DNA of 64,000 nt from Sphingopyxis macrogoltabida (GTDB lineage: Bacteria > Pseudomonadota > Alphaproteobacteria > Sphingomonadales > Sphingomonadaceae). The notes beneath the pieces are model-generated. The model worked only from the letters and a program-made list of their open reading frames with translations, was not told where the DNA came from and did no database searches. Positions 36,756 to 63,469 of this stretch are shown here, one piece after another; position 1 is the stretch's first letter; each line of letters starts with the position of its first letter. The position numbers and the translations under genes are program-made. The stretch lies in NCBI RefSeq assembly GCF_001314325.1, contig NZ_CP009430.1:1-64000 (forward strand), in the 5' to 3' direction.

Positions 36756-36767
36756 TTCCAATACCTC

Positions 36768-39201: not shown

Positions 39202-39490
39202 TGCATGATTTCCTCATTCCGGCGCTCCCGCGCATCGCATTCATTGTTCGCATGGCCAGAAAACTTTCCGAGCGTAGCTTGCAACGAACCTGGATGCCGG
39301 CCGAGAATTTGCAGGAGGGCGCGCGCGGCGGCCCAATCGTCTGGAGCACGACCGCATCGAATTCCATAAATCGCCGTGCAGCCTCACATCGACTCCCCCC
39401 TCCGCCAGTCGAATGTTCGGTTGAATTATCCGACAATCAGACTAAAGACAATCGAAAGCGATACGATAATTTCTGGAGGGGGGACCAGTC
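39202..39490. other. Divergent promoter interval with one regulon operator
   Basis: No gene is seen in this interval. It separates the MFS gene from the wrecked TonB receptor and carries the operator copy at 39425-39437. Confidence 0.5.
39425..39437. promoter_or_regulatory. Catabolic-regulon operator copy a
   Basis: ATTATCCGACAAT matches 12 of 13 bases of the island palindrome ATTGTCCGACAAT. It lies 53 bp upstream of the decayed TonB-receptor start codon, close to the spacing seen at the intact receptor (36 bp). No good -35 box was seen at the expected distance. Confidence 0.6.
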
Positions 39491-39802
39491 ATGTCATAGC
39501 GTGCGCGCATTCTATGTTTGGCGGCTTTATTGGTGGAAATGCTGGCGCCCGCACCGGCATTTGCGAAGCAGGCCGTCAATTCAATCGCGATTTCTTCCGC
39601 CGAAACGCAAGCGCCCCAGCCAGCGGTGACACCGAAATTCCGCAGGACGATTCCGCGGACATTGTTGTGACCGGGTCGCTAATCTCTGAACCCCAACCTG
39701 ATTTCGGCAGCGCCGGTCACGCAAGTCGAGCGTGAACTCTTCATCGAATATTTTGGCGCGCTTGATGCTGCGGGGATTAATCCTGGGCTCCTGAACGACT
39801 GA
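39491..39802 (+). pseudogene. TonB-dependent receptor fragment, nonsense and frameshift mutations
   Basis: A strong ribosome site (GGAGGGGGG) precedes ATG at 39491, but the third codon is TAG. The frame then gives a signal peptide (CLAALLVEMLAPAPAFA) and AETQAPQPAVTP. After a frame change it reads DSADIVVTGSLIS, a TonB-box and plug start, and after a second change NPNLISAAPVTQVER, running to a stop near 39800. Only the N-terminal plug beginning survives. The sequence type differs from the intact receptor downstream, so it is not simply a duplicate. Confidence 0.75.
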
Positions 39803-39888
39803 ATTCGTTTGTCGCACCGCGGTCGCGCTGACGGCCACTTCGCACCGTGGCGCGCAACGTCTGCCGCCGCCAGAGGTCTCGCGGGCGC

Positions 39889-40566
39889 TTAGCTGCTGGC
39901 CGGAAGCAGAGGCTCGAAGGCCGCCCTGAGCGCCGCGATCAGCAGCCCGGGCTGTTCGAGCGGAATCAGGTGACCGCTATGCTCAATGACGGTCAACAGC
40001 GAACCCGGAATATGCTCGTGCAAGGTGCGGCTCTCATCGATCGTGCGCAATTCGTCCTGTGCAGCGGCCACTACGAGTGTAGGGCAGGTGATTTCTCCGA
40101 GACGCGCCGTATCGTCGTCGCGGTGAAATTGTGTTTGCCGGGCGAATACCTCACCGCCGAGGCGCCGGCTCATATCCTGTACCCGGACGATCAGCGCTTC
40201 GCTGCGGTGGTCGGGATGGAGTGAGCGAGCGACCGCTGCTCGGCTGAGTTCGCGAAAGGTACCGGGCCGAAGGGGCGGGGAAGGCAATGACTCGCTGCCG
40301 CGCGATGAGGTTGCAACCAGTGCCAGGCCGCAGATACGGTGCGGGGCCTTATAGGCGATCTGCCGCGCGACATAGCCCCCCATCGAGAAGCCGATAACGA
40401 GTGCGGGTCCGTTCGTCACGCGCAGGGCGCGTGCGGCGATGCCATCGATCGTGCTGTCCATCGCCGTGTCGATGTCGATCGCGCGCCCGAAATCCGCCAA
40501 GGCGGCGCGCATCTCGCTCCACAGATCGGCGTCGAGCATGAAGCCGGGGATCAGAAGAATATCCAT
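39889..40566 (-). CDS. Alpha/beta hydrolase, small
   Basis: A 225-residue alpha/beta-hydrolase. The opening MDILLIPGFMLDADLWSEM, nucleophile elbow GFSMGGYVAR, the AAAQDELRT acid region and the late EHSGHLIPLEQP histidine make a complete triad. It resembles the MhpC/esterase-like group. It lies divergent to the TonB receptor, sharing the interval with operator copy b. It may hydrolyse an ester, lactone or C-C bond in the degradation route; this is inference. Confidence 0.8.
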   Translation of the reverse strand: MDILLIPGFMLDADLWSEMRAALADFGRAIDIDTAMDSTIDGIAARALRVTNGPALVIGFSMGGYVARQIAYKAPHRICGLALVATSSRGSESLPSPPLRPGTFRELSRAAVARSLHPDHRSEALIVRVQDMSRRLGGEVFARQTQFHRDDDTARLGEITCPTLVVAAAQDELRTIDESRTLHEHIPGSLLTVIEHSGHLIPLEQPGLLIAALRAAFEPLLPASS

Positions 40567-40649: not shown

Positions 40650-40685
40650 TTGACTCATTCTCCTACTATCGTATTGTCGGACAAT
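40650..40685 (+). promoter_or_regulatory. Receptor promoter with regulon operator copy b
   Basis: TTGACT (40650-40655) and TATTGT (40672-40677) lie 16 bp apart, and the perfect palindrome ATTGTCGGACAAT (40673-40685) covers the -10. This should drive the TonB receptor and perhaps the following MFS gene. Confidence 0.65.
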
Positions 40686-40721: not shown

Positions 40722-43115
40722 ATGAAGCCGAGTCATTGGACATATGCGATCTCTACCGTCTGTCTCGCGATGAGCGCCAAGCCTGCAAATGCGCAGGATG
40801 CGGCCGAAAAAATGAGCACAGCGGCGCAGGCCGAGCCCTACGGCGGCGACATCATTGTTACCGCGCGCAAGCGCGAGGAGACGTCGCTTTCTGTCCCGGT
40901 GATCATCAGTGCCATAGGGCAGCAGGAGATCGCGCGCCGGGGACTTTCGGAGATCGATACGATCGCACGGTCGATCCCGTCGCTGGTCGTCGGTGAGGGA
41001 GGTGGTACCATCCAGGGCGGAAATGTCGCCATTCGGGGTATTGGAGGCGCCGATTCCAATCCGTTGGGAGATCAGGCCGTCGCTTTCAATATCGATGGCG
41101 TTGCAATCGCACGGGCGTCGGTTCGGCGATTGTCGCAAATGGACATTCAGCAGATAGAGGTGCTGAAAGGTCCGCAGGCGCTTTTCTTCGGGAAAAACAG
41201 TCCGGGCGGCGTCGTCTCTATCCGCAGCGCCGATCCGACCCGCGAATTCGCCGCGCAGGCTATGTTCGGCTTCGAAGGCGAGTCGCGCGAGTTTCGCGAG
41301 GAGGGCTATGTCTCCGGGCCCCTGTCCGACACGCTTGGCGCCCGGCTGGCGGTGTCGCGCACCGATTCACGGGGCTATGCTAAGAATTTGGTGCCGGCTT
41401 CGTCGCCTTTCGCGCCGCGCGAACGATGGTCGCCTGAAGTCCATGAAATCGCGGCGCGCGGAACCCTCAAATGGGAGCCGACGAGCCGCCTTGCGGTGAC
41501 GGCCAAGCTCGCATTCAGCAAGCTGCACGGGTCGGGGACCTATTCGAACCAGGAATATGTCGATTGCCCCTTCGGAGCGCCTCAACCGCTCAGCTCGGGC
41601 ATGGTCGATGACTGTACGGCTGATGGGCGCAACATCGTCGGCGAGCCCGGCGACGTGCTCGGAGCGATTCCGGGGTTCAATGGAGGGAAATCCTACGGCA
41701 AATTTTCGCAGGTCCTTGGCAGCCTCAACATCGACTATGATCTGACGGACAGCCTCACCCTGACGAGCGTGACCGGCTATTACCGATCGCACGCCGACAG
41801 CAAGAACAATTTCACTAACGCCTATTATGCGCCCACGGTGGGCATCTCCTACCTGGTTCTGAATATTCGCGAACTGTCCGAAGAGGTCCGCCTCACCAGC
41901 GACTTCGACGGGATGCTGAATTTTACGGTCGGCGGATATTATCAGGAAATGCGGGGCTACTTCCTCAACCGAAGCGCCTTCAACGTGGTCGCGCCGACGA
42001 TCAACACCCAGGCCCAATATCGCCAGGAAGGTTCGGCGTTTTCGGCCTTCGGGCAGTTGCGATTGGCCTTGAGCCCGACGCTCGAGCTTGCAGGTGGCGG
42101 ACGCTATTCGACCGAAAGAAAATATATTCCCTCGGCGATGATCGGCACCGCCGGACCGCTCGCGACCACCGGGAGCACCACGCTGATTCCGCGCACGATC
42201 CTGATCAACGGCGTGCCGAAGAACCGCGAACGCTGGAACGATTTTTCTCCCGAAGCGACGCTGACCTGGCGGCCGACCAATGCGCTGACGATCTTCGGGG
42301 CATACAAGACCGGCTTCCTGTCGGGAGGCTTCAACGTCGGCAATTCCAACAGCTTCACCGATATCGAATATGCGCCGGAAACGATCGAAGGTTTCGAAGC
42401 CGGGATCAAGACCAGGCTCTTCGATGGATCGCTCCGGCTTGACCTTTCGGCCTACACCTACAAGCTCGACGATCTGCAGGTGACCGTGCCGGTGGGACCC
42501 ACCAACGCAACCGAGCTCCGCAATGCTGCGGGCTCGCGGATCAAGGGTGTCGAGTTCGAGGCCAATTACCGCACACCGCTCGACGGGCTCTCGCTCAAGG
42601 GGGCCATCGCCTATACTCAGGCCCGCTACACCGATTATCTCTCGGCCTGTTACAGCGCACAGCCGGCGCCCGAATGTTCGGTCCGCTTCAATCCGGCGAC
42701 CGGTCAGTCGTCGCTGTCGCAGGACCTCTCGGGAACCCAGCTCGTGCGCGCGCCCGACTGGACGGGAAGCGCCGGTTTCCTCTACGAGGCGCCGATAGGC
42801 GGGAACCTGAAGTTTGGCCTGTCGGGCGACATGTCATTCAGCAGCAGCTTCTTCACCAGCTCGGACAATCGGCCGGCGGGGCGGCAGAGCGCCTACCAGC
42901 TCTACGATGCCGGCTTCTATGTCGCGGCGGACGACGACCGGTGGAAGGTCGCCTTCATCGGCCGCAACCTCGGCAACAGCTATTATTTTACCCGCAGCAT
43001 TGGCGTGACGCGTACAGGGGGTGCTGCCGGGGCCATCAACCCGGTTCCGGCCGACGTCGCCGGCGTGGTCAGTCGAGGGCGCGAGCTCTGGGCACGCTTC
43101 ACCGTCCAGTTCTAG
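40722..43115 (+). CDS. TonB-dependent outer-membrane receptor
   Basis: A 797-residue receptor. A signal peptide (cleavage near KPANA-QDA) is followed by the TonB box region GGDIIVTARKREE near residue 45, a plug domain (IARSIPSLVVGEGG, VAIRGIGG, IEVLKGPQALFFGKN) and a beta-barrel ending in LWARFTVQF with a terminal Phe. In sphingomonads such receptors import hydrophobic carbon sources as well as iron chelates; position and operator suggest uptake of the island's substrate. The ribosome site is GGGAGG. Confidence 0.93.
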   Translation: MKPSHWTYAISTVCLAMSAKPANAQDAAEKMSTAAQAEPYGGDIIVTARKREETSLSVPVIISAIGQQEIARRGLSEIDTIARSIPSLVVGEGGGTIQGGNVAIRGIGGADSNPLGDQAVAFNIDGVAIARASVRRLSQMDIQQIEVLKGPQALFFGKNSPGGVVSIRSADPTREFAAQAMFGFEGESREFREEGYVSGPLSDTLGARLAVSRTDSRGYAKNLVPASSPFAPRERWSPEVHEIAARGTLKWEPTSRLAVTAKLAFSKLHGSGTYSNQEYVDCPFGAPQPLSSGMVDDCTADGRNIVGEPGDVLGAIPGFNGGKSYGKFSQVLGSLNIDYDLTDSLTLTSVTGYYRSHADSKNNFTNAYYAPTVGISYLVLNIRELSEEVRLTSDFDGMLNFTVGGYYQEMRGYFLNRSAFNVVAPTINTQAQYRQEGSAFSAFGQLRLALSPTLELAGGGRYSTERKYIPSAMIGTAGPLATTGSTTLIPRTILINGVPKNRERWNDFSPEATLTWRPTNALTIFGAYKTGFLSGGFNVGNSNSFTDIEYAPETIEGFEAGIKTRLFDGSLRLDLSAYTYKLDDLQVTVPVGPTNATELRNAAGSRIKGVEFEANYRTPLDGLSLKGAIAYTQARYTDYLSACYSAQPAPECSVRFNPATGQSSLSQDLSGTQLVRAPDWTGSAGFLYEAPIGGNLKFGLSGDMSFSSSFFTSSDNRPAGRQSAYQLYDAGFYVAADDDRWKVAFIGRNLGNSYYFTRSIGVTRTGGAAGAINPVPADVAGVVSRGRELWARFTVQF

Positions 43116-43179: not shown

Positions 43180-44490
43180 ATGCACCATGGTATCGCGATG
43201 ATGAGCAAGCCCGAGGATGATGGTTCCGAAGCCGGTGCGAAGACCGCGTTGAAGCGGACTGCGCGGTCCGAATGGAAAGAAAGCTGGCGGGTCGTCTTCG
43301 TCTCGATGGTCGGCATCGGCATGGGCGGGATTCATATCTACAGCCTCGGTGCCTTCGTCATTCCGCTTTCCGAGGCGTTCGACTGGCCGCGCGCGCAAAT
43401 CACCTCCGGCCTCACTATCGTCTCGCTTTTCTCGATTCTCTGCTCGGCCTTTGTGGGCATGCTGATCGACCGGGTCGGACCGCGTCGAGTGGCGATCCCG
43501 GGCGTGATCGCCTTCGGACTATCGGTGGCCCTGCTGTCAACGACCGGACCCTCGATCTGGAACTGGTGGTTGCTGTGGATTCTCGTTGCGGCGTCGATCC
43601 AGTTCGCCAAAGCAACCGTATGGACCACGGCGGTCGCGGTCCGCTTCACGGCGAGCCGGGGCCTTACGATCGCGCTTGCGCTGAGCGGTGCCGGCCTTTC
43701 GGCTGCGCTGACCCCCTATCTGTCGAGCTATCTGATCGGCGCTTTCGGCTGGCGGCTTGCCTATATCATGCTCGCGCTGGGTTGGGGGCTTGTCACCCTG
43801 CCGCTCGCACTGGCATTTTTCCGCGATCGGCCGGCTTCTGTCCCGGACAGAGATCTGCGGCACGCACGCAAGCCGGTCGCGCCTGCCGCCAGACTTCGCG
43901 AGACTTATTTGTCGGTGCGCTTCTTCGGTCTCGGCATGGCGGCGTTCATGTCGGCAATCGTTTCGCTTGCCCTGCTCGTCCACTTCATCCCGATCATGGT
44001 CGATTCGGGGATCAGCAAGACCAGCGCGGCGGCCCTGGCGGGGGCTCTCGGCATCAGCTCGGCAGTCGGGCGGCTGGCCATAGGCTGGCTGTTCGACCGG
44101 TTTCCCGCGCGTATCGTGGGGAGCTTGGCTTTTGTCGTCCCGGCGCTTGCCTGTGCGCTCATCCTCTTTTTCAACGGATCGATGATCGAGGCGTTTATCA
44201 TCGCCTGCTGCATCGGCATCGCCATCGGTGCGGAAACCGACGTTGCCGCCTATCTGACCGCCAAATATTTCGACCTTCGTAACTATGGCGCGCTGTTCGG
44301 GATGCTGATGGGCATATTGAGCGGTGCGACGGGCGTGGGCCCGCTGCTGGCGGGATTGGCCTTCGACAATCAAGGCTCCTATGCGGTCTTCCTCTGGGCG
44401 GGCATCCCGGCATCGCTCGTCGCCGCTTCGCTCATCCTCGCCTTGGAGCGCATGCCGGGCGCGAGGGGTGACAGGACCGCGTCCGCTTGA
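43180..44490 (+). CDS. MFS transporter, OFA/monocarboxylate-like
   Basis: A 436-residue 12-helix major facilitator of the oxalate/formate-antiporter and monocarboxylate-transporter type (SEAFDWPRAQITSGLTIVSL, then MLIDRVGPRRVAIPGV). It follows the TonB receptor by 64 bp, so it is probably the inner-membrane step of the same uptake route. The start is unsettled: ATG at 43180 abuts its GAGG, while ATGs at 43198 and 43201 have no site. Confidence 0.85.
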   Translation: MHHGIAMMSKPEDDGSEAGAKTALKRTARSEWKESWRVVFVSMVGIGMGGIHIYSLGAFVIPLSEAFDWPRAQITSGLTIVSLFSILCSAFVGMLIDRVGPRRVAIPGVIAFGLSVALLSTTGPSIWNWWLLWILVAASIQFAKATVWTTAVAVRFTASRGLTIALALSGAGLSAALTPYLSSYLIGAFGWRLAYIMLALGWGLVTLPLALAFFRDRPASVPDRDLRHARKPVAPAARLRETYLSVRFFGLGMAAFMSAIVSLALLVHFIPIMVDSGISKTSAAALAGALGISSAVGRLAIGWLFDRFPARIVGSLAFVVPALACALILFFNGSMIEAFIIACCIGIAIGAETDVAAYLTAKYFDLRNYGALFGMLMGILSGATGVGPLLAGLAFDNQGSYAVFLWAGIPASLVAASLILALERMPGARGDRTASA

Positions 44491-44515: not shown

Positions 44516-45307
44516 TCAGGAGAATTTCGGCGTGCGTTTCTCGACAAACGCGCGGACCGCTTCATGATGGTCCGGAGAGAGATGAGCGATGGCCTGGTAG
44601 CCCGCCGATATTTCGAGAAGCGAGTCGAGCGTCGAGCCCATGCCCTCGCGCAGCAGTCGCTTGGTCATGCGCAGCACGCCCCCAGGATTCGATGCGATCT
44701 GCGTAGCCAGCGCCATCGCCTCGGCGAGGAGATCGTCGTGTGCGACAACACGTGACACGAGGCCGCAGGCCAACGCCTCGTCGGCCGTCAGCGCCGCGCC
44801 CGTGAAGGCCATTTCCGAGGCCTTCGACATGCCGACGACGCGGGGCAACAGCCATGCACCGCCGTCGCCCGGCACGATGCCGACCTTCACGAAACTCTCG
44901 GCAAAGGTGGCGCGCTCGGACGCGATGCGGATGTCACACATGCAGCCGAGGTCGAGCCCCGCGCCGATTGCGGGACCATTTATCGCGGCTATGACAGGGA
45001 CGTCGAGATTGTAGAGCGCGCGGGGAATGCGCTGGATCCCCTGGCGATATTCCTCCCGGATCGTATCGGGCGAGGGGGCGTCCTGCTCGTAGCGGAGCAT
45101 AGCTTTCACATTGCCCCCCGAGCTGAAGACCGGTCCCGCTCCGGTCAAGATCATTGCCCGGACGGTCGCGTCGGCGGTTACCCGCGCGCACAAGGCGACA
45201 AATTCTTCGACCGCGCTATTGCCGGTCAAGGCGTTGCGGGTCTCGGGCTGGTCCATCGTGACGGTCAGGACGGCGCCGTTCCGTGCCTCCGTGAGAAACT
45301 GGCTCAT
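44516..45307 (-). CDS. Crotonase-family protein, PaaG-like
   Basis: A 263-residue enoyl-CoA hydratase/isomerase family member. The oxyanion-hole segments FSSGGNVKAM and INGPAIGAGLDLG are present. In the active-site region FAESFVKVGIVPGDGG the position of the first hydratase glutamate is a Phe, while the second (ASEMAFTG) is kept; the Asp in PGDGG recalls PaaG-type isomerases. It is therefore more likely an isomerase or ring-acting crotonase than a plain hydratase. It overlaps the upstream acyl-CoA dehydrogenase by four bases and ends the operon started by the CoA-transferase. Confidence 0.85.
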   Translation of the reverse strand: MSQFLTEARNGAVLTVTMDQPETRNALTGNSAVEEFVALCARVTADATVRAMILTGAGPVFSSGGNVKAMLRYEQDAPSPDTIREEYRQGIQRIPRALYNLDVPVIAAINGPAIGAGLDLGCMCDIRIASERATFAESFVKVGIVPGDGGAWLLPRVVGMSKASEMAFTGAALTADEALACGLVSRVVAHDDLLAEAMALATQIASNPGGVLRMTKRLLREGMGSTLDSLLEISAGYQAIAHLSPDHHEAVRAFVEKRTPKFS

Positions 45308-46317
45308 CGTGCATCGCCTTCCTGTCGGGTAATCGCCTGAATCATATCGAGACAGGGGCCGTGCCACTCGGCGATGAGCGTCTTCCCGAGGCGGTCGTGC
45401 CAGAAGGATTCGGACCCGGCGGAGAGGCGTCCCGCGTGCAGGCGGCGCGTGAAGAGCTGCAGATCGAGTTCGGCAGTGAAGCCGATCGCGCCATGGACGG
45501 CGTGCGCAATCGTCGCAACCTCGAGCGCCGCTTCCGACGTTCGCGCCTTCGCGGCGGCGACTGCGAGCGCAAACCGTTCGTCGGAACTTGCCCGACAGCC
45601 GAGCTGCGCTGCCATGCGCGAGGCGAACACGAGTTCCGCCATGACGCTCAACTGATGCTGCACCGTCTGGAACTTGCCGATCGGACGCCCGAATTGCTGG
45701 CGGCCGTTGGCATAGTCGAGCGTCTGCTCGAAAATACGCGCCATCGCGCCCGCAAGCTGCGCCGATGCGAGACAGGCCTCGAGTTCGAGCAACGTGCCAC
45801 CGATCGGGAGCGCGGCCGCACCCGTTAGGGCTGCCGCCTGCCACGACAGGGACGCGTCGAGCGGGAAGACATGCCGGTCGCGGACCTCGACCCGAAGGAG
45901 GACCGCTGCATCGCCGAGCGCGACGAGCGCCCAGTCGGCGACTTGGCCGAACGATACCGCCGGGGCATGGATCGCGCCATAACCGTCCTGCGTGGCCCGG
46001 CCGATCGCGATGCTTCCAGGAGGAGGACTGACGCCGGCTGCCGCCAGCGCGGCGCGGGCAACCATCGTTTGCGCGAGCGGTACCGGGACCGCGTGGCGGC
46101 CGCAGAGCTCGAAGAGTGGATAGGTCTGTGCGAGGTCGAGACCGGCGCCTCCGTTTGTTTCCGGAAGCAGTGCATCGGCAAAGCCGCTCTCTTCTATCAA
46201 GCTCCAGAGAGTCTCTGCCGGTTCACCCGCTTCGATTTCGCGAATGCGGCGGCCGGTGCAATGCTCGTCCAGCAAGCGATCGAGCGTCTCGGCGAGCAGT
46301 TGTGCGATATCGTCCAT
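45304..46317 (-). CDS. Short acyl-CoA dehydrogenase-like subunit
   Basis: A 337-residue acyl-CoA dehydrogenase family protein, shorter than the usual 380 and divergent in its middle domain. The C-terminal helical domain keeps DYANGRQQFGRPIGKFQTVQ and AVHGAIGFTAE. It is adjacent to a larger family member with only one base between them. This matches the paired subunits of alpha2-beta2 dehydrogenases for bulky substrates such as steroid side chains, so the two probably form one enzyme; that is inferred. Confidence 0.85.
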   Translation of the reverse strand: MDDIAQLLAETLDRLLDEHCTGRRIREIEAGEPAETLWSLIEESGFADALLPETNGGAGLDLAQTYPLFELCGRHAVPVPLAQTMVARAALAAAGVSPPPGSIAIGRATQDGYGAIHAPAVSFGQVADWALVALGDAAVLLRVEVRDRHVFPLDASLSWQAAALTGAAALPIGGTLLELEACLASAQLAGAMARIFEQTLDYANGRQQFGRPIGKFQTVQHQLSVMAELVFASRMAAQLGCRASSDERFALAVAAAKARTSEAALEVATIAHAVHGAIGFTAELDLQLFTRRLHAGRLSAGSESFWHDRLGKTLIAEWHGPCLDMIQAITRQEGDAR

Positions 46318-46318
46318 C

Positions 46319-47476
46319 TCAGCGCAGCCCCAGACCGCGAGCGATCATCCCGCGCAAAATCTCGCGCGTCCCTCCGCGCAGCGAGTAGGAAGGCGACGAT
46401 TGCGTTGCATAGGCCAGCGTTTGCCACAGTTCCATCGGTACGAGCTCTGGCGCGCGGCTGCCCAGATCGTCGGCAATGACCGCGGGGACCATTTGCTCGA
46501 AACTCGTTCCAAGGTCCTTGACCAGCGCAGCCTCGACGACAGGGCTTTCTCCCCGCGACAGTTTTTCCGTCACAGCGATCGACAGCGCGCGAAGCGGCGC
46601 GAGATGGGCGGCAAGCCGGCCCGCCAACCGCGTCGACGCAGGCGAACCGCCCATCTTGGTGCGGACGAACGCCAGCCATTCGTCGAGAAGGACCATGCTC
46701 GAATAGATCCGCTCCGGTCCGCTCCGCTCGAACGCCAGTTCGGCGGTCACCTGTTCCCACCCCTGGCCCTCGGTGCCGATCAGCGCGTCCGGCCGCAGCC
46801 GGACATTCTCGAAGAAAACTTCGCAAAAATGGGAATCGCCGGACAGATCCTCGATCGGCCGGACGGTCACCCCCGGCAAAGACAGGTCGATGATGACCTG
46901 CGACAGGCCCTTCTGACGGTCGGACGTGCTTCCGGATGTGCGCACGAGCGCGATCATGAAGTGCGAGCCATGCGCGTTGGTCGTCCAGATCTTCTGTCCG
47001 TTCAGGACCCATTGGTCGCCTTCGCGTTCGGCGCGGGTGGCGATGCTTGCGAGGTCCGAACCTGCGTTGGGTTCGCTCATGCCGATGCAGAAAAAGGCCT
47101 CGCCCCGGCAGATGCGCGGAAGGTAGAAACGTTTCTGGTCTTCGGTGCCATATTTGAGGATGAGGGGTCCGCTCTGGCGGTCCGCGATCCAGTGCGATCC
47201 GACCGGTGCCCCGGCGTTGAGCATCTCTTCGGCGATGACAAAGCGCGCGAACGAAGACCGGCCACCCCCGCCATATTCGGGAGGAAGCGTCAAGCCGAGC
47301 CATCCCCGCCTTGCCAGCTCGCGGCTGAACGCGGGATCATAACCGCTCCAAGAGCGTGCCCGCCGATCGGCCGGACGGCTGCAAACCGCTTCCTCGAGAA
47401 AGGCGCGCACAGCCGGGCGAAGTGCTTCATCTTCGTCCGGGATCGCCGCCAGGTCGAGCGAGGCGAGACCGGTCAT
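46319..47476 (-). CDS. Acyl-CoA dehydrogenase, larger subunit
   Basis: A 385-residue flavoprotein dehydrogenase with FAD- and substrate-binding blocks (CIGMSEPNAGSDLASIATRA, WVLNGQKIWTTNAH). The C-terminal segment reads SLRGGTREILRGMIARGLG, so the place of the MCAD-type catalytic Glu (in YEGT) is Gly; the base, if any, must lie elsewhere, as in several actinobacterial FadE proteins. ATGA overlap with the CoA-transferase indicates coupled translation. Confidence 0.9.
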   Translation of the reverse strand: MTGLASLDLAAIPDEDEALRPAVRAFLEEAVCSRPADRRARSWSGYDPAFSRELARRGWLGLTLPPEYGGGGRSSFARFVIAEEMLNAGAPVGSHWIADRQSGPLILKYGTEDQKRFYLPRICRGEAFFCIGMSEPNAGSDLASIATRAEREGDQWVLNGQKIWTTNAHGSHFMIALVRTSGSTSDRQKGLSQVIIDLSLPGVTVRPIEDLSGDSHFCEVFFENVRLRPDALIGTEGQGWEQVTAELAFERSGPERIYSSMVLLDEWLAFVRTKMGGSPASTRLAGRLAAHLAPLRALSIAVTEKLSRGESPVVEAALVKDLGTSFEQMVPAVIADDLGSRAPELVPMELWQTLAYATQSSPSYSLRGGTREILRGMIARGLGLR

Positions 47477-53777: not shown

Positions 53778-53802
53778 CGATGAAACGAGCGGAGATGCAA
53801 AG

Positions 53803-54629: not shown

Positions 54630-54668
54630 TTGACAAATTTTGGTAGGTCAGTAGGAATGTCCGACAAT
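54630..54668 (+). promoter_or_regulatory. P450 operon promoter with regulon operator e
   Basis: TTGACA (54630-54635) is followed by AGGAAT at 17-bp spacing, and the 12-of-13 palindrome AATGTCCGACAAT (54656-54668) covers the -10 and start region. It is 43 bp before the P450 start codon. Confidence 0.65.
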
Positions 54669-55929: not shown

Positions 55930-55939
55930 GGAGAGCGAC

Positions 55940-56137
55940 ATGAAGATCAAGGTGGATCAGCATAATTGCATCGGAGCCGGCAACTGCGCGCAGCTCGCGC
56001 CCAAGGTTTTCAGCCAGCGCGAAGAGGACGGCGTCGTCATCCTCCTCGACGAGACGCCCGGGGATTCCGAAGCCGAAGATGTCGCCAAGGCGGTCAAAAT
56101 CTGTCCGGCTCAGGCGATCAGCGTTTCAGAAGGCTGA
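55940..56137 (+). CDS. [3Fe-4S] ferredoxin, P450 partner
   Basis: A 65-residue ferredoxin with cysteines C10, C16 and C55 (HNCIGAGNCAQLAP and ICPAQA). The second cysteine of a four-iron cluster is replaced (A13), which gives the [3Fe-4S] type known from actinobacterial P450 systems. It would pass electrons to the P450 encoded just upstream. Confidence 0.93.
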   Translation: MKIKVDQHNCIGAGNCAQLAPKVFSQREEDGVVILLDETPGDSEAEDVAKAVKICPAQAISVSEG

Positions 56138-56146
56138 CCGCGCTCC

Positions 56147-57109
56147 ATGTCCAGATTGATCGAAGTAGAGGTTCGGGCCGTCATCCGCGAGGCCGAGGGA
56201 ATTAATTCCTACGAACTGCGCCCGCGGCTTGGGGGCGAGCCGCTTCCACCGTTTACCGCAGGAGCGCATATCGACGTGCACCTGCCCAACGGGCTCGTGC
56301 GCAGTTATTCGCTGAGCAATCCGGAAGGGGAAACCACCCGCTACGTGATCACCGTTGCGAACGATGTGGCCTCGCGCGGCGGTTCGCGATTCATGCACGA
56401 AAAGCTGATGCCCGGCGATGCTTTTGCGATCAGCGAGCCACGCAACAATTTTCCGCTCGACGAAGCGGCTGCGCACAGCATTTTCATTGCTGGCGGCATC
56501 GGTGTTACACCGCTCTGGTGCATGGCGCAGCGGCTGCAATCGCTCGGACGATCCTGGCAGCTCGTTTATTGCGCGCGGACCCGTCGACAAGCGGCCTTTA
56601 TCGAAACTCTGGTCGACCTGAAGGAGAAGGTGAAAATGAACCTTCACTTCAACTTCGATGGCGAGCCCGGCGGAAAAATGCTCGACATCGCTCAGCTCGT
56701 GGCGGCAGCGCCGGCCGGAACCCATTTTTATTGCTGCGGCCCGCTGCCGATGCTGGCGGCCTTCGAGAGCGCGACGGCGCATCTTGCACCCGAACTTGTC
56801 CATGTCGAATATTTCACACCCAAGGAGGCGCCATCGACGGCCGGGGGCTTTACCGTCAAGCTCGAACGCTCCGGCATTGAATTCTTCGTTGAGGAGGGTA
56901 AGACGATCCTCGACATGGCGATTGAGGCGGGGGTCGATGTTCCCTTCTCTTGCATGGAGGGAACTTGCGGCGAGTGCGAGACCCGCATCATTTCCGGACT
57001 GCCCGACCATCACGATTCCTGCCTTACTCCGCGCGAGCGCGAAGCGAACAACAAGATGATGATCTGTTGTTCGGGATCCAATTCCGACACGCTCGTTCTG
57101 GATCTTTGA
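56147..57109 (+). CDS. Phthalate-dioxygenase-reductase-like FMN/[2Fe-2S] oxidoreductase
   Basis: A 320-residue reductase. The N-terminal flavin domain has RSYSLSNPEGE, and the NAD-binding domain has FIAGGIGVTPLWCMAQ and YCCGPLPML. The C-terminal plant-type [2Fe-2S] domain has CMEGTCGEC followed by a distant Cys in MMICC. This is the layout of phthalate and vanillate oxygenase reductases and of the reductase part of CYP116B. It probably reduces the [3Fe-4S] ferredoxin or the P450 directly. Confidence 0.92.
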   Translation: MSRLIEVEVRAVIREAEGINSYELRPRLGGEPLPPFTAGAHIDVHLPNGLVRSYSLSNPEGETTRYVITVANDVASRGGSRFMHEKLMPGDAFAISEPRNNFPLDEAAAHSIFIAGGIGVTPLWCMAQRLQSLGRSWQLVYCARTRRQAAFIETLVDLKEKVKMNLHFNFDGEPGGKMLDIAQLVAAAPAGTHFYCCGPLPMLAAFESATAHLAPELVHVEYFTPKEAPSTAGGFTVKLERSGIEFFVEEGKTILDMAIEAGVDVPFSCMEGTCGECETRIISGLPDHHDSCLTPREREANNKMMICCSGSNSDTLVLDL

Positions 57110-57124
57110 GGTGGACCTTCGGGC

Positions 57125-58084
57125 GTGAAGGCCTGGCATTTCCTCGGCCCGGGGCATCCGCTTGAACGCGTCGACATCGACGTCCCGGTCCCCGGCGAGG
57201 GCGAGGTACTCGTCGAAGTTAGAGCCGCGGGACTCTGCCACAGTGACGTCTCGATCATGAAGGGCGTCCTTGACGTGACGAGCAAGAGCCCGCTCGTCCT
57301 GGGCCACGAGATCGCCGGTGTCGTGCTACAAATCGGGCCGGGTGTTGAAGACGTCGCGATCGGAGATCCGGTCGGGCTGGCATTTGATCGCGCCGCCGCG
57401 ATGCGGGGGGAAATCGATACGCCCGGCGTCTCGCGCGACGGCGGCTTCGCTGGTTCGGTGATCGGCAAGACGGGTTTTCTGGTGCCCATCCCCAAGGGTG
57501 TGAGTTTCGCACAGGCCGCGGCGGGGACCGATGCCGGAATGACCGCCTATCACGCCGTCAAGGTCGCAGGCCGCGTCGGACCCGGCATGAAGGTCGGCAT
57601 TGTCGGTCTCGGTGGCCTCGGCCTGCTTGCGGCGCGGATCGCCATCATCCTCGGAGCCGAGGTCTACGCGGCCGAGCCGAAGGAAGCTTTGTGGCCGAAG
57701 GCACGATCGATCGGGATCTCAGATTGTTTCGCAGATGTGCTCGAGATGGCGCCGCTTCGCCTCGACGTGATCTGCGACTTCGCGGGCCGCGGGTCGACCA
57801 CGGCCGGCGCGATCGAAGCGGTTCGGTCCGAAGGCCGGGTGGTACAAGTCGGCCAAGCCGTTCGGGACGCAACCATCTCGATCCATGCATTGACGCTCAA
57901 GGCCGTCGAACTGGTGGGATCGCTCGGCGGCACGGGCGACGACATCGCCGCCGTCTATGCGCTGATTGCGTCGGGGCAGCTTAACCCGACGATCGAAACT
58001 ATCGGGTTCGACGATATTCCCGCCGGTCTCGATCGTCTCGCGCGCGGCGCTCTCGAAGGCCGCCTCGTGGCCGAATATCCCTGA
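57125..58084 (+). CDS. Zinc-type alcohol dehydrogenase family protein
   Basis: A 319-residue medium-chain dehydrogenase. Catalytic-zinc ligands are present in GLCHSDV (near C38) and GHEIAG (near H60/E61), and the NAD motif is GIVGLGGLGLLAA. The usual four-cysteine structural-zinc loop is absent: the region after FDRAAAMRGEIDTPG has no cysteines. The start is a GTG. It probably oxidises the alcohol made by the P450, being the last gene of that operon. Confidence 0.88.
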   Translation: MKAWHFLGPGHPLERVDIDVPVPGEGEVLVEVRAAGLCHSDVSIMKGVLDVTSKSPLVLGHEIAGVVLQIGPGVEDVAIGDPVGLAFDRAAAMRGEIDTPGVSRDGGFAGSVIGKTGFLVPIPKGVSFAQAAAGTDAGMTAYHAVKVAGRVGPGMKVGIVGLGGLGLLAARIAIILGAEVYAAEPKEALWPKARSIGISDCFADVLEMAPLRLDVICDFAGRGSTTAGAIEAVRSEGRVVQVGQAVRDATISIHALTLKAVELVGSLGGTGDDIAAVYALIASGQLNPTIETIGFDDIPAGLDRLARGALEGRLVAEYP

Positions 58085-58120: not shown

Positions 58121-59758
58121 TCAGTTTTGCCGGTCGCGACCGAGAACCAAGGTCGCCAGTTCGGGCTTTTTGATCTTCCCGGTATCGGTCATCGGAAAGG
58201 CATCGAAGATCTCGACACGCGTGGGCAGCTTGTAGCCGGCAATGTCCAGCGCCTTCAGATGGTTTATTACCGACGCAAAATCGGTTCCGTCATCGTGCGT
58301 CACGATGCAGGCGCAGACAGACTCCCCCAGGCGCGCATCGGCCAGCCCAATGACGGCAGCCTTTTCGATCGCCGGGTGTTTAAGGAGCGATTCCTCGATT
58401 TCGCGCGGCGCGACATTCATTCCGCCGCGGATGATGATTTCCTTCTTTCTCCCCACGATCGTCAGGCAGCGATTGTCGTCGAGCACGCCGAGATCGCCGC
58501 TCCGGATCCAGCCGTCGTCGCTGATATTGCCCTGCGGCGAGCCATCGGGCGCGGGTGCGAAGCCGACGCAGCTTTGCGGGCTGCGCGAGAAGATTTCTCC
58601 GCCTTCGCGTCCGTCGACCACAGCGCCAGAGTCGTCGCGAAGCTGGATTTCGACACTGGGCATGACCTGGCCGTCGGTCTTCGCGCGAAGCGTTGCGGGC
58701 AAGTTCGGTGCACCCTTCGCGATAGGCAGGGCTTCGGTCGACCCATAACCGCGCAGGACCGTGATGCCGAATGCTTCGGCCTTTTCGACGACGCCGTCGG
58801 GAATCGGCGCGCCGGCGCAACCAAAATAGCGAAGCTGCGACAAGTCCTTGGGTGCATCGCCGAGGACGCCGAGCATGTCGAGCAGGTGCGTCGGCGAAAC
58901 CGCGGTCAGACTTGCGCCCTCCGCCAGGCACAGGTCGATTCCGGCTGCGGCGTCCCAGCGATCCTGAAGCAGGATCTTCAATCCGTGATGCAAAGCGAAA
59001 CGCACACCGAAATTGAAACCGGTCGAGTGACCGATCGGCATTGGCATCCAGACGACGTCTTCGGCATTCAGACCGAGGAATTTATACATCTCGCGCACCC
59101 CGCACCCCGTCGTCTGCTCGGTGTGAAGGATCGCCTTGGGCATCGATTCGGTGCCGGAGGTGAAGAGGAGCATCGACACATCTTCCGCGTGGCCGGTTGC
59201 CTTGAGCGCTAGCGGCTCCGTATCGCCGAGCAAGGATTCCAGGCCGCTGAAATCGTCGGTCGGGATGGGAACCTGGAGATGATGGACGCTGTGCTCCAGC
59301 CCGGCGGTCGCCTCTCGGATCCGCTCGGCGTAGGACGCCGAGCGATAATGCTCGGGTGTCACAACGACCTTGGTGCGTGCCACCCCGATCATATGGTTCA
59401 GCTCCTTGGCACCATAGGTCGGGATGAGCGGATTGAGGACCGCGCCGAGGCGCAAGGCCGCGAGATCGAAGACGATCGCTTCGTACCAATTCGGCATCTG
59501 TACCGCCACGACGTCGCCGCGAACAACGCCGAGCGTAGCTAGCAACGCTGCGGCGCGCGACGAATGATCGCGCAAGTCCGCATAGGTCGCACGGCGGCGG
59601 CCGAGCTGGTCGACGATCGCGGTGCGATCCGGAGCCGCGCTGGCCCAGTGCTCGATCTGGTCGGTCAGGGTGACCGCATCCCAGTAGCCGGCGGCGACAT
59701 AAGCCGCGCGGCGTTCCTCGGGGATGCGGACGTCGCGGGTCAACTGCGCGTAGGACAT
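58121..59758 (-). CDS. AMP-forming acyl-CoA ligase
   Basis: A 545-residue adenylate-forming ligase. Motifs in order are LLFTSGTESMPKAILHT (ATP loop), RGYGSTEALPI, SGDLGVLDD, GRKKEIIIRGGMNVAPREIE and the C-terminal catalytic lysine in TGKIKKPEL. It would activate the acid product with CoA. The ATG at 59758 has GGGGAGA upstream. It is the third gene of a minus-strand operon (SDR, crotonase, ligase) and converges on the alcohol dehydrogenase gene. Confidence 0.93.
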   Translation of the reverse strand: MSYAQLTRDVRIPEERRAAYVAAGYWDAVTLTDQIEHWASAAPDRTAIVDQLGRRRATYADLRDHSSRAAALLATLGVVRGDVVAVQMPNWYEAIVFDLAALRLGAVLNPLIPTYGAKELNHMIGVARTKVVVTPEHYRSASYAERIREATAGLEHSVHHLQVPIPTDDFSGLESLLGDTEPLALKATGHAEDVSMLLFTSGTESMPKAILHTEQTTGCGVREMYKFLGLNAEDVVWMPMPIGHSTGFNFGVRFALHHGLKILLQDRWDAAAGIDLCLAEGASLTAVSPTHLLDMLGVLGDAPKDLSQLRYFGCAGAPIPDGVVEKAEAFGITVLRGYGSTEALPIAKGAPNLPATLRAKTDGQVMPSVEIQLRDDSGAVVDGREGGEIFSRSPQSCVGFAPAPDGSPQGNISDDGWIRSGDLGVLDDNRCLTIVGRKKEIIIRGGMNVAPREIEESLLKHPAIEKAAVIGLADARLGESVCACIVTHDDGTDFASVINHLKALDIAGYKLPTRVEIFDAFPMTDTGKIKKPELATLVLGRDRQN

Positions 59759-59762
59759 GCCG

Positions 59763-60563
59763 TCATCTCCCCTTGAAGCTGGGCTTGCGCTTTTCAAGGA
59801 ACGCATTGGTAGCTTCTTGAAAATCATCGCTGAAAAGGGTGATTTGCTCGAGCGCCAGCGATGTATCCATCGCCAGATTGAACTGTTGCTGGATCATTTT
59901 GTTAAGCGCGTGTTTCGTCCAGCGGATCGCCAGCTTGGGTCCGCGCTGGAGACGCTTTGCGAGTTTCAGCGCTGCCTCATAGGCCTCTCCGTCTTCGACC
60001 AGTTCATTGATCAGGCCGATGCGCTCGGCCTTTTCGGCAGTCATCAGGTCGCCGGTCATCAGATATTGCTTCGCGAGATTGGGGCCCACTAGGAGTGGCC
60101 AAATGACACAGGCGCTGTCCCCTGCGACGACGCCCATGCGCACGTGGGGATCGCCGATCCGCGCCGAACGCACTGCGATCGAGACATCGCAAAGCAGGGC
60201 GATATTCGCCCCGAGGCCGACGGCATCGCCGTTGATGGCAGAAATGATGGGCGGTTCGACCTGCAGCATGTTGCTGATCGCGCGACGGGCGCCGCGAAAG
60301 CCGTTCTTCGACAGCGGGTCATAGTTTTTCGGGTTGTTGAGCGTCTGTGCGTCGCCGCCGACCGAAAATTTGTCACCGACGCCGGTCAGGATGATCGCAT
60401 CGACCTCGGGATCCGCGTCGATGTCGAGCCAGATGCGCTGGAATTCCTTGTTCATGGTCGGGTTCATCGCATTGCCCCGTTCGGGCCGATTGATCCAGAT
60501 GGTCAGGATCCCGTCGACTTTCTCGATCTTGAGCGTTTCATATCCGTCATAGGCCACGGCCAT
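59763..60563 (-). CDS. Crotonase-family protein lacking both hydratase glutamates
   Basis: A 266-residue enoyl-CoA hydratase/isomerase family protein with the oxyanion-hole regions FSVGGDAQTL and INGDAVGLGANIAL. In IGDPHVRMGVVAGDSA the first hydratase Glu position is His, and in AKQYLMTG the second is Gln. The Asp in VAGD may act instead. It is therefore unlikely to be a normal enoyl-CoA hydratase; ring cleavage, retro-aldol or isomerase activity is possible. Confidence 0.85.
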   Translation of the reverse strand: MAVAYDGYETLKIEKVDGILTIWINRPERGNAMNPTMNKEFQRIWLDIDADPEVDAIILTGVGDKFSVGGDAQTLNNPKNYDPLSKNGFRGARRAISNMLQVEPPIISAINGDAVGLGANIALLCDVSIAVRSARIGDPHVRMGVVAGDSACVIWPLLVGPNLAKQYLMTGDLMTAEKAERIGLINELVEDGEAYEAALKLAKRLQRGPKLAIRWTKHALNKMIQQQFNLAMDTSLALEQITLFSDDFQEATNAFLEKRKPSFKGR

Positions 60564-60587
60564 TTCCTCTCGTCTGATAGTGCAGAT

Positions 60588-61421
60588 TCAATCTTCGTCC
60601 TGATGTGTAGCGGCGTCGCGGACAGCTTCGGAGGGATCGACCAGGAGATAGCCGCCATCGACGGCGAGTGCCTGTCCGGTAATCCAGCTGGAATCGTCGG
60701 ATGCAAAGAATAGCGCCGCCTTTGCAACGTCCCACGCGCTGCCCTCGCGTTTGATCGGCGCTTCCGTGCGCCGCCGTTCGCGCAGCGCAGCAATCGCGGA
60801 AGCGTCGAGGTGGGCGTGTGCTCGTTCGGCCATCGGCGTCCACGGCCCGCCGACCACGAGGGCGTTCACGCGAATTCCCTTTGGCCCGAGATCGACGGCG
60901 CAGGTTCGGGTCAGGGCGATGATCGCGCCTTTCGATGTCGCGTAAGCGAAGGCATTCTTGAGGGGACGTTCGCCGCTGCGCGACGAGATGTTTATGACCG
61001 TTCCGCCGTCGGGCATGAGCGCGGCCGCAGCCCGCGTCATCATCATCGTTCCCTTGAGATTGACGTCGAGCACCGCGTCCCACCGATCGATATCAAGGTC
61101 GAGCAGGCCGGAGCGATCCGACACCGCGGCATTGTTCACCAATATATCGATGCGTTGATAGGTCGCTGCAGCAAGCTCAGCGACGCGCGTGCAATCGGCG
61201 GCCTTGCCGATATCCGCGGCCACAACGATGCACGCGCCTCCCTCCTCATCAATGAGCGCCGCAGTCCGGCGCGCGGGCTCGGGGTCACGATTGGCCAAGA
61301 CAATGCGGCATCCTTCTCTGGCGAGCGTTATGGCGGTCGCCGCGCCGACGCCGACGCCGTCTTTCGCCCCTGCGCCGGTTACTATCGCGACCTTGCCAAA
61401 TAGACGTCTTGAGACAGTCAC
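60588..61421 (-). CDS. Short-chain dehydrogenase/reductase
   Basis: A 277-residue SDR with VTGAGAKDGVGVGAA (an insertion in the usual glycine motif), NNAAVS and the YATSK catalytic pair. The GTG at 61421 was chosen because the operator-promoter f lies at 61480-61516, upstream of it; a longer open frame to 61556 would contain that promoter. It is the first gene of the SDR-crotonase-ligase operon. Confidence 0.87.
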   Translation of the reverse strand: MTVSRRLFGKVAIVTGAGAKDGVGVGAATAITLAREGCRIVLANRDPEPARRTAALIDEEGGACIVVAADIGKAADCTRVAELAAATYQRIDILVNNAAVSDRSGLLDLDIDRWDAVLDVNLKGTMMMTRAAAALMPDGGTVINISSRSGERPLKNAFAYATSKGAIIALTRTCAVDLGPKGIRVNALVVGGPWTPMAERAHAHLDASAIAALRERRRTEAPIKREGSAWDVAKAALFFASDDSSWITGQALAVDGGYLLVDPSEAVRDAATHQDED

Positions 61422-61680
61422 CTGCGCGCCAGCTCCCAGTTTCTCTTCACCGACTCCGGCATCGACGCTGCCGGTATCTTGGTCCGACAATCGTACAATA
61501 TCGAACGCCGTGTCAACTAGATTGAAGTGCAATCGGTCTTTTGTCGCCAGCGACATGGCGCGCGGCGGATTGCCCGGGTGCAGCTATCGCGACCGCGTCA
61601 GCGCGTCCGGAATCGAATGCCGTCCCGCGCGTCGGCGGCAGGTCTCTTGCTCAGGTGGCACGAGCCGGGAAGAGGGAGCT
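61422..61680. promoter_or_regulatory. Promoter with regulon operator f, and 3' end of the aldehyde dehydrogenase unit
   Basis: On the minus strand TTGACA (61511-61516), a 17-bp spacer and GATTGT (61488-61493) are overlapped by an 11-of-13 operator copy at 61480-61492. The rest of the interval up to 61680 holds no recognised gene. Confidence 0.65.
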
Positions 61681-63168
61681 TTAGAGTTTTATACGGACCG
61701 ATTTCGTCGCGAGATAGGCATCGATGCCTTCGGCGCCGAATTCGCGGCCCCAACCGCTTTCCTTAAAGCCGCCGAACGGAACCATCGGATGGAGCAGTCC
61801 GTAGCAATTCACCCATATGTTGCCGGCCTCGAGCCTTGCCGCGAGCCGGTGGGCCTGGCTGAGGTCGCTGGTATAGACGCCGGCGGCCAGGCCATAGCGG
61901 GTGTCATTGGCCTGCCGGACGGCATCGTCGAGGTCGTCGAAGGGCGTGACGACAAGAACCGGCCCGAAAACCTCTTCGCGCACGATCGTCATATCGCTGT
62001 CTACATTGGCGAAGACGGTCGGCTCGACAAAATGCCCGTCGCCCGCCGGCATCCCGCCGCCAGCCACGACTTCGGCGCCGGCGCTGCGCGCGCCCTCGAT
62101 ATAGCGACCGACCTGCGAAAGCTGCTTTTCCGAGATCAGCGGTCCGATCTGTGTCGCGGGGTCGAGCCCATTACCAATCGTCATGGCCTTGCCGATATCG
62201 GCGATGCCGGCAACAACCTGATCGAAGACCTTCCGGTGGGCGTAGAGCCGCGACCCGGCAATGCACATCTGACCGCTGTTCATGAAGATGCCCATCGAAG
62301 CGGCCTGGACGGCATTCGAAATGTCGGCGTCGCCGAGAATGATGCACGGCGACTTGCCGCCGAGCTCCAGCGTCACGCGTTTCAGGTTGGCGCTCGAAGC
62401 GGCAACGATACGCTTGCCGACCGCGGTCGAGCCAGTGAACGATATTTTCTCGACCAGGGGATGGTCGGCGAGTGCCTGTCCGGCGGTCGGTCCGTAACCG
62501 GGAACGATGTTCAACACGCCGGGCGGAACTCCGGCCTCGAGTGCGAGCGCGCCAAGGCGCAATGCCGAAAGCGGCGTCGCCTCGGCGGGCTTGACCACGC
62601 AGGAACAGCCGGCGGCAAGGGCGGTGCCGACCTTGAATACGAACGCTGGCGCAGGACCGTTCCAGGGCGTGATAAGGCCGACCACACCGATCGGTTCCCG
62701 GACCGTGTAGACATGATGCAGCGTGTCGCCGCCCGAAACGGAATCGGACAGGTTGGCGCCGCCAAGCGAAGTCGTCTGTCCCGCAAAATAGCGCAGAGCA
62801 TCGGAAGCGGCGGCAATTGTCGCATTGGCCATCCATTGCGGCATGCCGTTGTTGACGACATCGATCTGTGCGAGCTCCTCGGCATTTTCATCGATGAGCT
62901 CGGCAAAGCGCCACAGGATCGCGCGGCGCTGCTGCGGGAGCAGTCCGCGCCAGCTCCGCACCTCGAAGCTTCGTCGCGCGGCCAGTACGGCGAGGTCGAT
63001 GTCGGCGGCGTCGCCCTCTGCTACGGTGGCAATTCGGCTTCCGTTGGACGGATCGAATATATCGAACGTCTTGCCCGAAATCGCGTCGCGCCAGCCGCCG
63101 TCGATTAATAGCTGGTGCGGGGAGCCAAGGAAGGCCGAAACGGCCGCAATCGGTTTATGAACTGTCAC
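61681..63168 (-). CDS. Aldehyde dehydrogenase, NAD(P)-dependent
   Basis: A 495-residue aldehyde dehydrogenase superfamily enzyme. The catalytic glutamate is in VTLELGGKSP and the cysteine in NSGQMCIAGSR; the cofactor region FTGSTAVGKRI is present. The GTG at 63168 has AAGGAT seven bases upstream and gives the normal family length; the longer open frame is upstream DNA containing the promoter. It probably converts the aldehyde from the alcohol dehydrogenase step to the acid. Confidence 0.93.
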   Translation of the reverse strand: MTVHKPIAAVSAFLGSPHQLLIDGGWRDAISGKTFDIFDPSNGSRIATVAEGDAADIDLAVLAARRSFEVRSWRGLLPQQRRAILWRFAELIDENAEELAQIDVVNNGMPQWMANATIAAASDALRYFAGQTTSLGGANLSDSVSGGDTLHHVYTVREPIGVVGLITPWNGPAPAFVFKVGTALAAGCSCVVKPAEATPLSALRLGALALEAGVPPGVLNIVPGYGPTAGQALADHPLVEKISFTGSTAVGKRIVAASSANLKRVTLELGGKSPCIILGDADISNAVQAASMGIFMNSGQMCIAGSRLYAHRKVFDQVVAGIADIGKAMTIGNGLDPATQIGPLISEKQLSQVGRYIEGARSAGAEVVAGGGMPAGDGHFVEPTVFANVDSDMTIVREEVFGPVLVVTPFDDLDDAVRQANDTRYGLAAGVYTSDLSQAHRLAARLEAGNIWVNCYGLLHPMVPFGGFKESGWGREFGAEGIDAYLATKSVRIKL

Positions 63169-63469
63169 AGCATTGATCCTTGCGTAGGCCGATCCTTGCA
63201 GGTGCGGATGAACCAGTGGAAGATAACTGTCGTGGCCGTGTAGCGGCGGGTCGAGCTGCGCACGGGGCCAGAGAGGCGTGTGGCGCCAAATACTTCCTCC
63301 TACCAGCCAGAGCGTGAAAACTCCTGTTGTTTGTCCGACAATCCTACGCAATCGAACCGCTGTCAACCTGCTAAGCCGCCCTTCAAGTCCCTTGACGGTT
63401 CTACAATCCTAAAATACGATTGTCGGATAACAGAGAAGCGAAGCGTTTCAATCGAGGATGGGAGTCCCG
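63169..63469. promoter_or_regulatory. Divergent promoters with regulon operators g and h
   Basis: Minus strand: TTGACA (63361-63366), 17-bp spacer and GATTGT (63338-63343), with the 12-of-13 operator at 63330-63342, for the aldehyde dehydrogenase. Plus strand: TTGACG (63392-63397), 17-bp spacer and TACGAT (63415-63420), with the 11-of-13 operator ATTGTCGGATAAC at 63419-63431, for the second P450. Confidence 0.7.

Follow-up and report, generated by a model that had tools for sequence, protein, structure and literature searches.

The first 64,000 bases of C2, the plasmid contig of Sphingopyxis macrogoltabida, raise the question of why one short palindrome recurs in front of so many of their genes, and which protein would read it. 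This whole stretch is referred to here as the window; C2 itself is 422,455 bp long and belongs to a genome of three contigs (5.75 Mb), with C1 being the chromosome (5.17 Mb), C2 the plasmid (0.42 Mb) and C3 the third contig. Comparison of C2 36000-106000 with plasmid NZ_CP013345.1 of S. macrogoltabida 203N revealed no differences over 70,001 bp, so RefSeq names could be used for the genes of C2. The answer favoured here, to which a probability of about 85% is attached, is that the palindrome serves as operator for a single plasmid-borne GntR regulator of the FadR subfamily, encoded at C2:87663-88400, which would control the promoters concerned. The interpretation of the first-pass annotation, which had taken the recurring word as the mark of a catabolic regulon, is supported by the analysis.

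All eight copies of the palindrome that had been reported were found (Table 1), with one start corrected from 61480 to 61479. When both strands of the window were searched for ATTGTCCGACAAT with up to three mismatches, 30 matches were obtained, whereas 100 shuffled sequences averaged 11.9 and none of them reached 30; the 11-bp core TTGTCSGACAA, allowing up to two mismatches, gave 21 matches in the window against 10.4, with one of the 100 shuffles reaching 21. The statement that the word occurs in no other interval held at one mismatch, but two-mismatch forms were also identified at 1793 and at 53279 (both scoring 12-13 bits), the latter inside a gene for a short-chain dehydrogenase/reductase (SDR). 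Twenty places in the genome, eleven on C2, eight on C1 and one on C3, match ATTGTCSGACAAT with no more than one mismatch, corresponding to approximately 26 per Mb on C2 versus 1.5 per Mb of chromosome, while at up to two mismatches 102 occurrences were counted versus 32 for the reversed pattern. Eleven near-matches on the chromosome were inspected as possible regulon members; each was covered by one or more open frames longer than 80 codons, a finding of little weight in GC-rich DNA. The near-match at C1:1081622 lies within an open frame of 452 amino acids (aa), and that at C1:2895257 falls among the first residues of a 268-aa open frame for a repressor-like protein.

Enrichment on C2 was borne out by a scan of the full replicon, a check that had been proposed by the first-pass annotation. 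With a matrix built from the eight window sites, 15 sites of at least 15 bits were identified on C2, five first-order random sequences giving an average of 1.8. The eight window sites score high by construction in this matrix; the other strong sites are those at 72692, 75253, 87416, 87488, 95911, 100543 and 160720. Given the re-read start of an SDR gene at 61.4 kb (discussed below), the strong sites fall in 12 intergenic regions, eleven within 39-101 kb and one at 160.7 kb. A second matrix was derived from 57 sites at homologues of the regulator, none of them from this plasmid but chosen using the word itself, and this ranked the eight window sites 1, 3, 4, 6, 11, 12, 14 and 15 on the plasmid. 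Column-permuted matrices (200 draws) gave a mean of 2.1 sites of at least 14 bits with a maximum of 15, equal to the 15 observed; near-original permutations are likely to explain this maximum, and the comparison was not used as support.

Eleven FCD-domain matches were identified in the genome, three of them on C2 and one of these inside the site cluster. None of the eleven lies in C2:1-64000, so the earlier statement that the window holds no such gene is right for GntR proteins of the FCD type. The gene inside the cluster is of the kind that had been suggested as worth looking for, a GntR/FadR gene beside another copy of the palindrome, as sites 87416 and 87488 adjoin it, just past its 3' end and before a hydratase operon. 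Its product was found to possess an N-terminal GntR winged helix-turn-helix (PF00392, 2.6e-16) and a C-terminal all-helical FCD domain (PF07729, 3.3e-24), both above cut-off and both seen in the predicted model, where the FCD helices span residues 77-227. The model (mean predicted local distance difference test score, pLDDT, 86) matches FadR-subfamily proteins with TM-scores near 0.5. The operator consensus of the FadR subfamily is given in PMC4494728 as TKGT-N3-ACMA, a pattern that the palindrome, read as TTGT-CSG-ACAA, fits by its sequence, as the first-pass annotation had pointed out.

The association of the word with this regulator is seen most clearly in other organisms. Eighty homologue loci, the best 80 of 227 confirmed, were found by protein alignment alone, with the motif unused. 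Within 1.5 kb of the regulator gene, TTGTCSGACAA was present as an exact copy at 49 of the 80 loci and with at most one mismatch at 62, four control palindromes being found within the same reach at 7, 1, 10 and 0 of the 80. Loci of other FCD regulators served as a second control (10 paralogues from the same genome and 28 from other genomes; locus L062, that of the 37% homologue of genome G119, was excluded and is without a copy), and over the same distance none of these 38 carried an exact copy and one carried a one-mismatch form. With up to two mismatches, ATTGTCSGACAAT gave 129 occurrences in 76 of the 80 loci, compared to 7-46 matches in 6-31 loci for six scrambled palindromes. At 57 of the 80, the regulator gene had a site of at most one mismatch upstream of it, at a distance of 400 bp or less.

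A palindrome census blind to the motif was also performed on the promoters of the homologues, using 76 non-redundant upstream regions from the 79 that were long enough. TTGTCNGACAA came top with 56 of 76 regions, the runners-up reaching 17 for the next palindrome with one central base and 19 for the best clearly different one at any spacing; at two shifted control positions it was outside the top five. In 17 further homologue-bearing genomes, some of which may share species with the 80 loci, exact WTTGTCSGACAAW was found within 10 kb of the gene in 14 (distances by hand), with 30 exact words in total, 17 of them near the gene, and 5 for the reversed control. Among the 28 homologues in the protein alignment, which were drawn from the 120 matches listed, recognition-helix residues R47, S48, T49, R51, E52 and G53 were kept in every one. 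The comparison of orthologous promoters recommended at the outset was feasible for the regulator and the operon conserved with it, and was not possible for the window's own genes.

In the mechanism envisaged, a dimer of the regulator would bind TTGTC-S-GACAA in the 12 intergenic regions, over the -10 box at several promoters, and without ligand it would block outer-membrane receptors, transporters, three cytochromes P450 and enzymes of coenzyme A (CoA)-dependent breakdown. Release would follow when the FCD domain takes up a pathway metabolite, most probably a carboxylate on the metal site. Residues D146, H150, H194 and H216 were invariant in all 28 aligned homologues and align with Asp and His residues of CGL2915 (2DI3). 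According to PMC7797058, such Asp and His residues form the metal site of LldR, TM0439, PS5454 and Atu1419 (with Asn for Asp), and in Atu1419 a bound citrate contacts the metal, yet the effector is methylenetetrahydrofolate. The ligand set of the metal-site FCD proteins, three His and one Asp or Asn, is present in the regulator's family, with metal binding itself a prediction. Because the Asp and three His are invariant, we lean towards a carboxylate rather than a CoA ester as the inducer. A CoA ester, proposed by the first-pass annotation and known for E. coli FadR, is a plausible if less favoured candidate: the conserved partners of the regulator resemble CoA-ester enzymes and, judged by title, FadR structures with acyl-CoA were among the fold matches, while the four invariant residues and, with the reservation about its effector, the citrate of Atu1419 argue for a free carboxylate.

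An operator over the -10 box usually signifies steric repression. At 40673, 48810, 61479 and 63330 the word sits 17-19 bp past TTGAC(A/T), over the -10 position, which suggests repression of this kind; the geometry of these four promoters is consistent with it. That the regulator is an activator, or acts in both ways, at some promoters is improbable, since it is at odds with the word covering the -10 position at these four, although the -35 spacing varies, some promoters are without a good -35 box, and E. coli FadR both represses and activates. The layout had been described as identical at three minus-strand promoters; this was found to be incorrect, as 48810 and 63330 share a gap of 18 bp between TTGACA and palindrome, whereas at 61479 it is 19 bp. 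A -35 box had also been assigned to the site at 39425, where no TTGACA-like box (up to two mismatches, 14-22 bp away) occurs on either strand. At 75253 the gap is 21 bp.

It is very unlikely that the palindrome is the operator of some other regulator, either an FCD paralogue or the LysR gene at 96060, with the adjacent GntR gene a bystander. The number of FCD matches in the genome and on the plasmid, and the lack of a strong site in front of the plasmid GntR gene, would fit this. However, the 10 paralogue loci of the same genome yielded no exact copy and a single one-mismatch form, the eight paralogues of the 10 that aligned have other recognition helices, and the word accompanies this GntR family in other organisms. 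Another FCD paralogue as binder was considered and rejected on the counts from the 38 loci given above (0 exact, 1 with one mismatch). Hardly tenable is the word as a shared promoter element, a variant -10 region spread by promoter duplication, for despite its -10 position and a TTGACA at 18-19 bp in some promoters, it is a near-perfect palindrome, recurs in 56 of 76 promoters of one regulator's distant homologues, and has flanking bases that differ, by eye, between the plasmid promoters.

Several results weigh against the palindrome as operator of the plasmid GntR regulator. Genome-wide, the 11-bp core, allowed up to one mismatch, showed no enrichment (119 occurrences versus 126 when the pattern was reversed); the excess is therefore confined to C2 and to the 13-bp word as a whole. 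Site 87488 drops to 11.4 bits and rank 21 under the homologue matrix. The regulator's own upstream region on the plasmid is without a strong site, a weak one (12.5 bits, 88340) lying just inside the gene, and the site usual upstream of homologues is therefore missing here. Among the 80 homologue loci, four are without the word even at two mismatches anywhere in the stretch, 23 show no site of up to one mismatch in the 400 bp next to the start, and 41 of the 137 words of at most one mismatch lie inside mechanically predicted open frames; of the 17 further genomes, 10 have such a site within 1.5 kb of the gene and seven are without one. In the family sample, the nearest homologue (37%, from G119) differs in its helix, and its 39.9-kb stretch holds only two forms with two mismatches. 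The gap to an exact TTGACA varies between 18 and 21 bp, and sites 39425, 87416 and 87488 are without a -35-like box. Finally, the window's own promoters could not be compared across species, since the other 393 family genomes searched yielded nothing at E<=1e-100 for the P450 at 54.7 kb.

No relative of the regulator itself was identified at E<=1e-50 in the other 79 genomes of the genus, and the other 396 family genomes searched held one 37% relative followed by weaker ones, but when the other 384 genomes of the class were searched, 17 had one at E<=1e-45. Its sparseness in genus and family suggests that the regulator was likely imported with the plasmid. A contig scan with the single regulator protein as query gave no match. 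Among the metagenome sequences listed, homologues of the regulator (P0047, 60%) and of the P450 (P0127, 61%) have identical sources and a longest contig of equal length, 90,008 bp; one contig appears to hold both, so a second, independent form of the cluster is probable.

Table 1. Predicted operator sites, regulator gene and genes behind the sites. Operator roles are predicted from sequence; ranks are those on C2 under the homologue matrix.
Feature	Position	Strand	Remarks
Operator ATTATCCGACAAT	39425..39437	+	Before TonB-receptor remnant (+); 224 bp from MFS gene start (-); rank 6
Operator ATTGTCGGACAAT	40673..40685	+	36 bp before TonB-receptor ATG; TTGACT 17 bp upstream; rank 4
Operator	48810..48822	-	TTGACA 18 bp upstream, minus strand; rank 3
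Operator TGTGTCGGACAAT	48864..48876	+	Would serve divergent plus-strand operon; rank 15
Operator AATGTCCGACAAT	54656..54668	+	TTGACA 20 bp upstream; rank 11
Operator ATTGTCGGACCAA	61479..61491	-	TTGACA 19 bp upstream; rank 12
Operator	63330..63342	-	TTGACA 18 bp upstream, minus strand; rank 1
Operator ATTGTCGGATAAC	63419..63431	+	38 bp before RefSeq start of second P450; rank 14
Regulator gene (GntR/FCD, 245 aa)	C2:87663-88400	-	~24 kb beyond window
TonB-dependent receptor	40722..43115	+	Pfam; RefSeq
MFS transporter	43198..44490	+	Possibly co-transcribed with receptor; RefSeq, Pfam
Putative operon: CaiB/BaiF CoA-transferase, two acyl-CoA dehydrogenases, enoyl-CoA hydratase	44516..48714	-	RefSeq, Pfam
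Putative operon: acyl-CoA dehydrogenase, FadJ-like fusion, two SDRs	48949..54591	+	RefSeq, Pfam
Cytochrome P450, ferredoxin, PDR/VanB reductase, zinc-binding dehydrogenase	54712..58084	+	
SDR (re-read GTG start), enoyl-CoA hydratase, AMP-binding CoA ligase	58121..61421	-	
Aldehyde dehydrogenase	61681..63168	-	
Second cytochrome P450	63470..64000	+	Runs on to 64678, then GMC oxidoreductase
GMC oxidoreductase against TIM-barrel protein			Beyond window, plasmid order 1
MFS against TonB receptor, ferredoxin, P450, aldehyde dehydrogenase			Beyond window, plasmid order 2
Hydratase-thiolase-DUF35-kinase-dehydrogenase operon			82.6-87.3 kb; beyond window, plasmid order 3
TonB receptor			Beyond window, plasmid order 4; site 95911
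Aldo/keto reductase against NTF2-like operon			Beyond window, plasmid order 5
Perfect 13-mer	160720		Beyond window, plasmid order 6; 60 kb off cluster

The genes behind the sites are listed in Table 1. On the other side of site 40673 lies a divergent alpha/beta hydrolase gene, and site 160720 is flanked by an alpha-hydroxy-acid dehydrogenase-like gene and a TauD-like gene, one on each side (names taken from the sequence alone). A further, weaker site, at 90767, scored 13.2 bits with the eight-site matrix and 15.0 bits (rank 13) with the homologue matrix, with TTGACA 18 bp upstream, facing a gene of the major facilitator superfamily (MFS). As annotated by RefSeq, site 61479 lies inside the SDR gene (60588-61556); a GTG near 61421, read by eye, is the likelier start because the Rossmann motif begins well downstream, and this would place the site before the gene. 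For the P450 at 54.7 kb (54712-55929), the RefSeq start was observed to be 35 codons short of an ATG at 54712 (54712-54817), and the product from this ATG aligns to CYP105Q4 from residue 3. Both RefSeq starts look wrong.

This P450 is CYP105-like, with CYP105Q4 (8swl) as its best solved match; the P450 at 63.5 kb had no solved relative at 1e-50, and a substrate could not be named from the matches of either. Relatives of the former among the matches listed were a few metagenome sequences (57-91%), the first named ones thereafter being actinobacterial at approximately 55%, which suggests long-distance transfer of the gene. Relatives of the TonB receptor on two plasmids (42% and 38%) had no copy of the word closer than two mismatches in stretches of 14.3 kb. 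A Novosphingobium plasmid with the thiolase (69%) had no annotated GntR gene and no copy closer than three mismatches in a 17-kb stretch, and a plasmid of Bosea F3-2 (thiolase 68%, GntR present) carried a one-mismatch copy between dehydrogenase and thiolase.

Some further features of the cluster were observed. Positions 39457-39790, between site 39425 and the next gene, read by eye like the decayed start of a TonB receptor with a plug-like DIVVTG stretch, so on this side the site may have no intact gene left to serve. At the left edge of the cluster, window positions 36387-37070 hold a toxin-antitoxin pair of the HigB type (RefSeq). Beyond the window, an IS3-family transposase gene splits the TonB-receptor gene at C2:92336-95855, in front of which strong site 95911 is situated.

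At least 35% identity over at least 60% of the query was required for a gene to be counted as a partner of the regulator. Near the homologues, the thiolase was found at 19 of the 80 loci, the hydratase at 16, the acyl-CoA dehydrogenase and the kinase at 13 each and the DUF35 protein at 8, so most loci show no such partners within reach. On the plasmid, an APH-type kinase (83847-84884, minus strand) adjoins an ACAD11-type dehydrogenase (82608-83813, minus strand). The dehydrogenase matched ACAD11 best (8v3u, 2.4e-149), the kinase 3dxp (7e-100) and then the kinase part of ACAD11 (4.9e-73), and the thiolase, among solved structures, the 'Lipid-transfer protein' 6ok1 (1.3e-72), which we take to be of the Ltp2 kind. 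Scanning of 61 of 71 candidate genes behind homologue sites identified nine periplasmic binding proteins, nine hydratases, seven thiolases, five FCD regulators, four APH-type kinases and four dehydrogenases. The LvaA/LvaC and ACAD10/11 pairs convert 4-hydroxyacyl-CoA to enoyl-CoA, according to PMC11342911. As the kinase-dehydrogenase pair resembles these, a 4-hydroxy or branched acid is a reasonable guess, no more, for the pathway intermediate.

Tentatively, and on balance doubtfully, the findings could be extended to an undescribed, widespread regulator subfamily, mainly of alpha- and betaproteobacteria, with WTTGTCSGACAAW as operator. Its ancestral target would be an operon for the hydratase, Ltp2-like aldolase, DUF35 protein and ACAD11-type kinase-dehydrogenase pair, it would sense a 4-hydroxy or branched carboxylic acid, and on the plasmid its control would have spread over 12 intergenic regions, including those of uptake and P450 genes.

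Comparison with known systems showed that the regulator has the same domain architecture, the same predicted fold (with seven main helices in the FCD part) and the same palindromic TKGT-N3-ACMA operator as the FadR subfamily. It fell below every curated NCBIfam cut-off among the 25 families listed, NanR being best (99 vs 260 bits), with those for E. coli-type FadR also unmet (NF003444, 39.4 vs 189 bits; TIGR02812, 35.4 vs 249.2). The best profile match among solved structures was LldR/CGL2915 of Corynebacterium (2DI3, 2e-25), with which the Asp and His positions are shared, although identity is 26% (Foldseek) and the partners here are CoA enzymes, unlike the lactate genes on which LldR acts. 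E. coli FadR belongs to the same fold family and its operator core, GTC-N-GAC, is shared with the plasmid word, but FCD metal ligands are conserved in the family of the plasmid regulator, and E. coli FadR is not known to belong to the metal-site members. The APH-type kinase and ACAD11-like dehydrogenase of the core operon recall LvaA/LvaC of Pseudomonas putida and ACAD10/ACAD11, differing in being two separate genes here, accompanied by an Ltp2-like thiolase and a DUF35 protein; lva of P. putida is under another type of regulator.

Searches with TTGTCCGACAA, TTGTCGGACAA, TTGTCNGACAA and six other spellings found no relevant paper, subscription papers and RegPrecise being outside the search, and a search on this gene combination found none either. 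Among papers on GntR with thiolase and acyl-CoA dehydrogenase, none dealt with such a regulator, judged by title and the opening of the abstract. GntR-type control itself is already known; what is probably new is the regulon, and with it the probable operator of a group of regulators that so far has no name. A probable operator can now be assigned to a group of GntR proteins named at best 'FadR family' among the matches listed, and its targets can therefore be read from genome sequence. The group is tied to genes that look like those of the ACAD10/11-LvaC route of 4-hydroxy-acid breakdown, and approximately 60 kb of plasmid genes are marked as one probably co-regulated pathway, the inducer of which could be screened for with a reporter.

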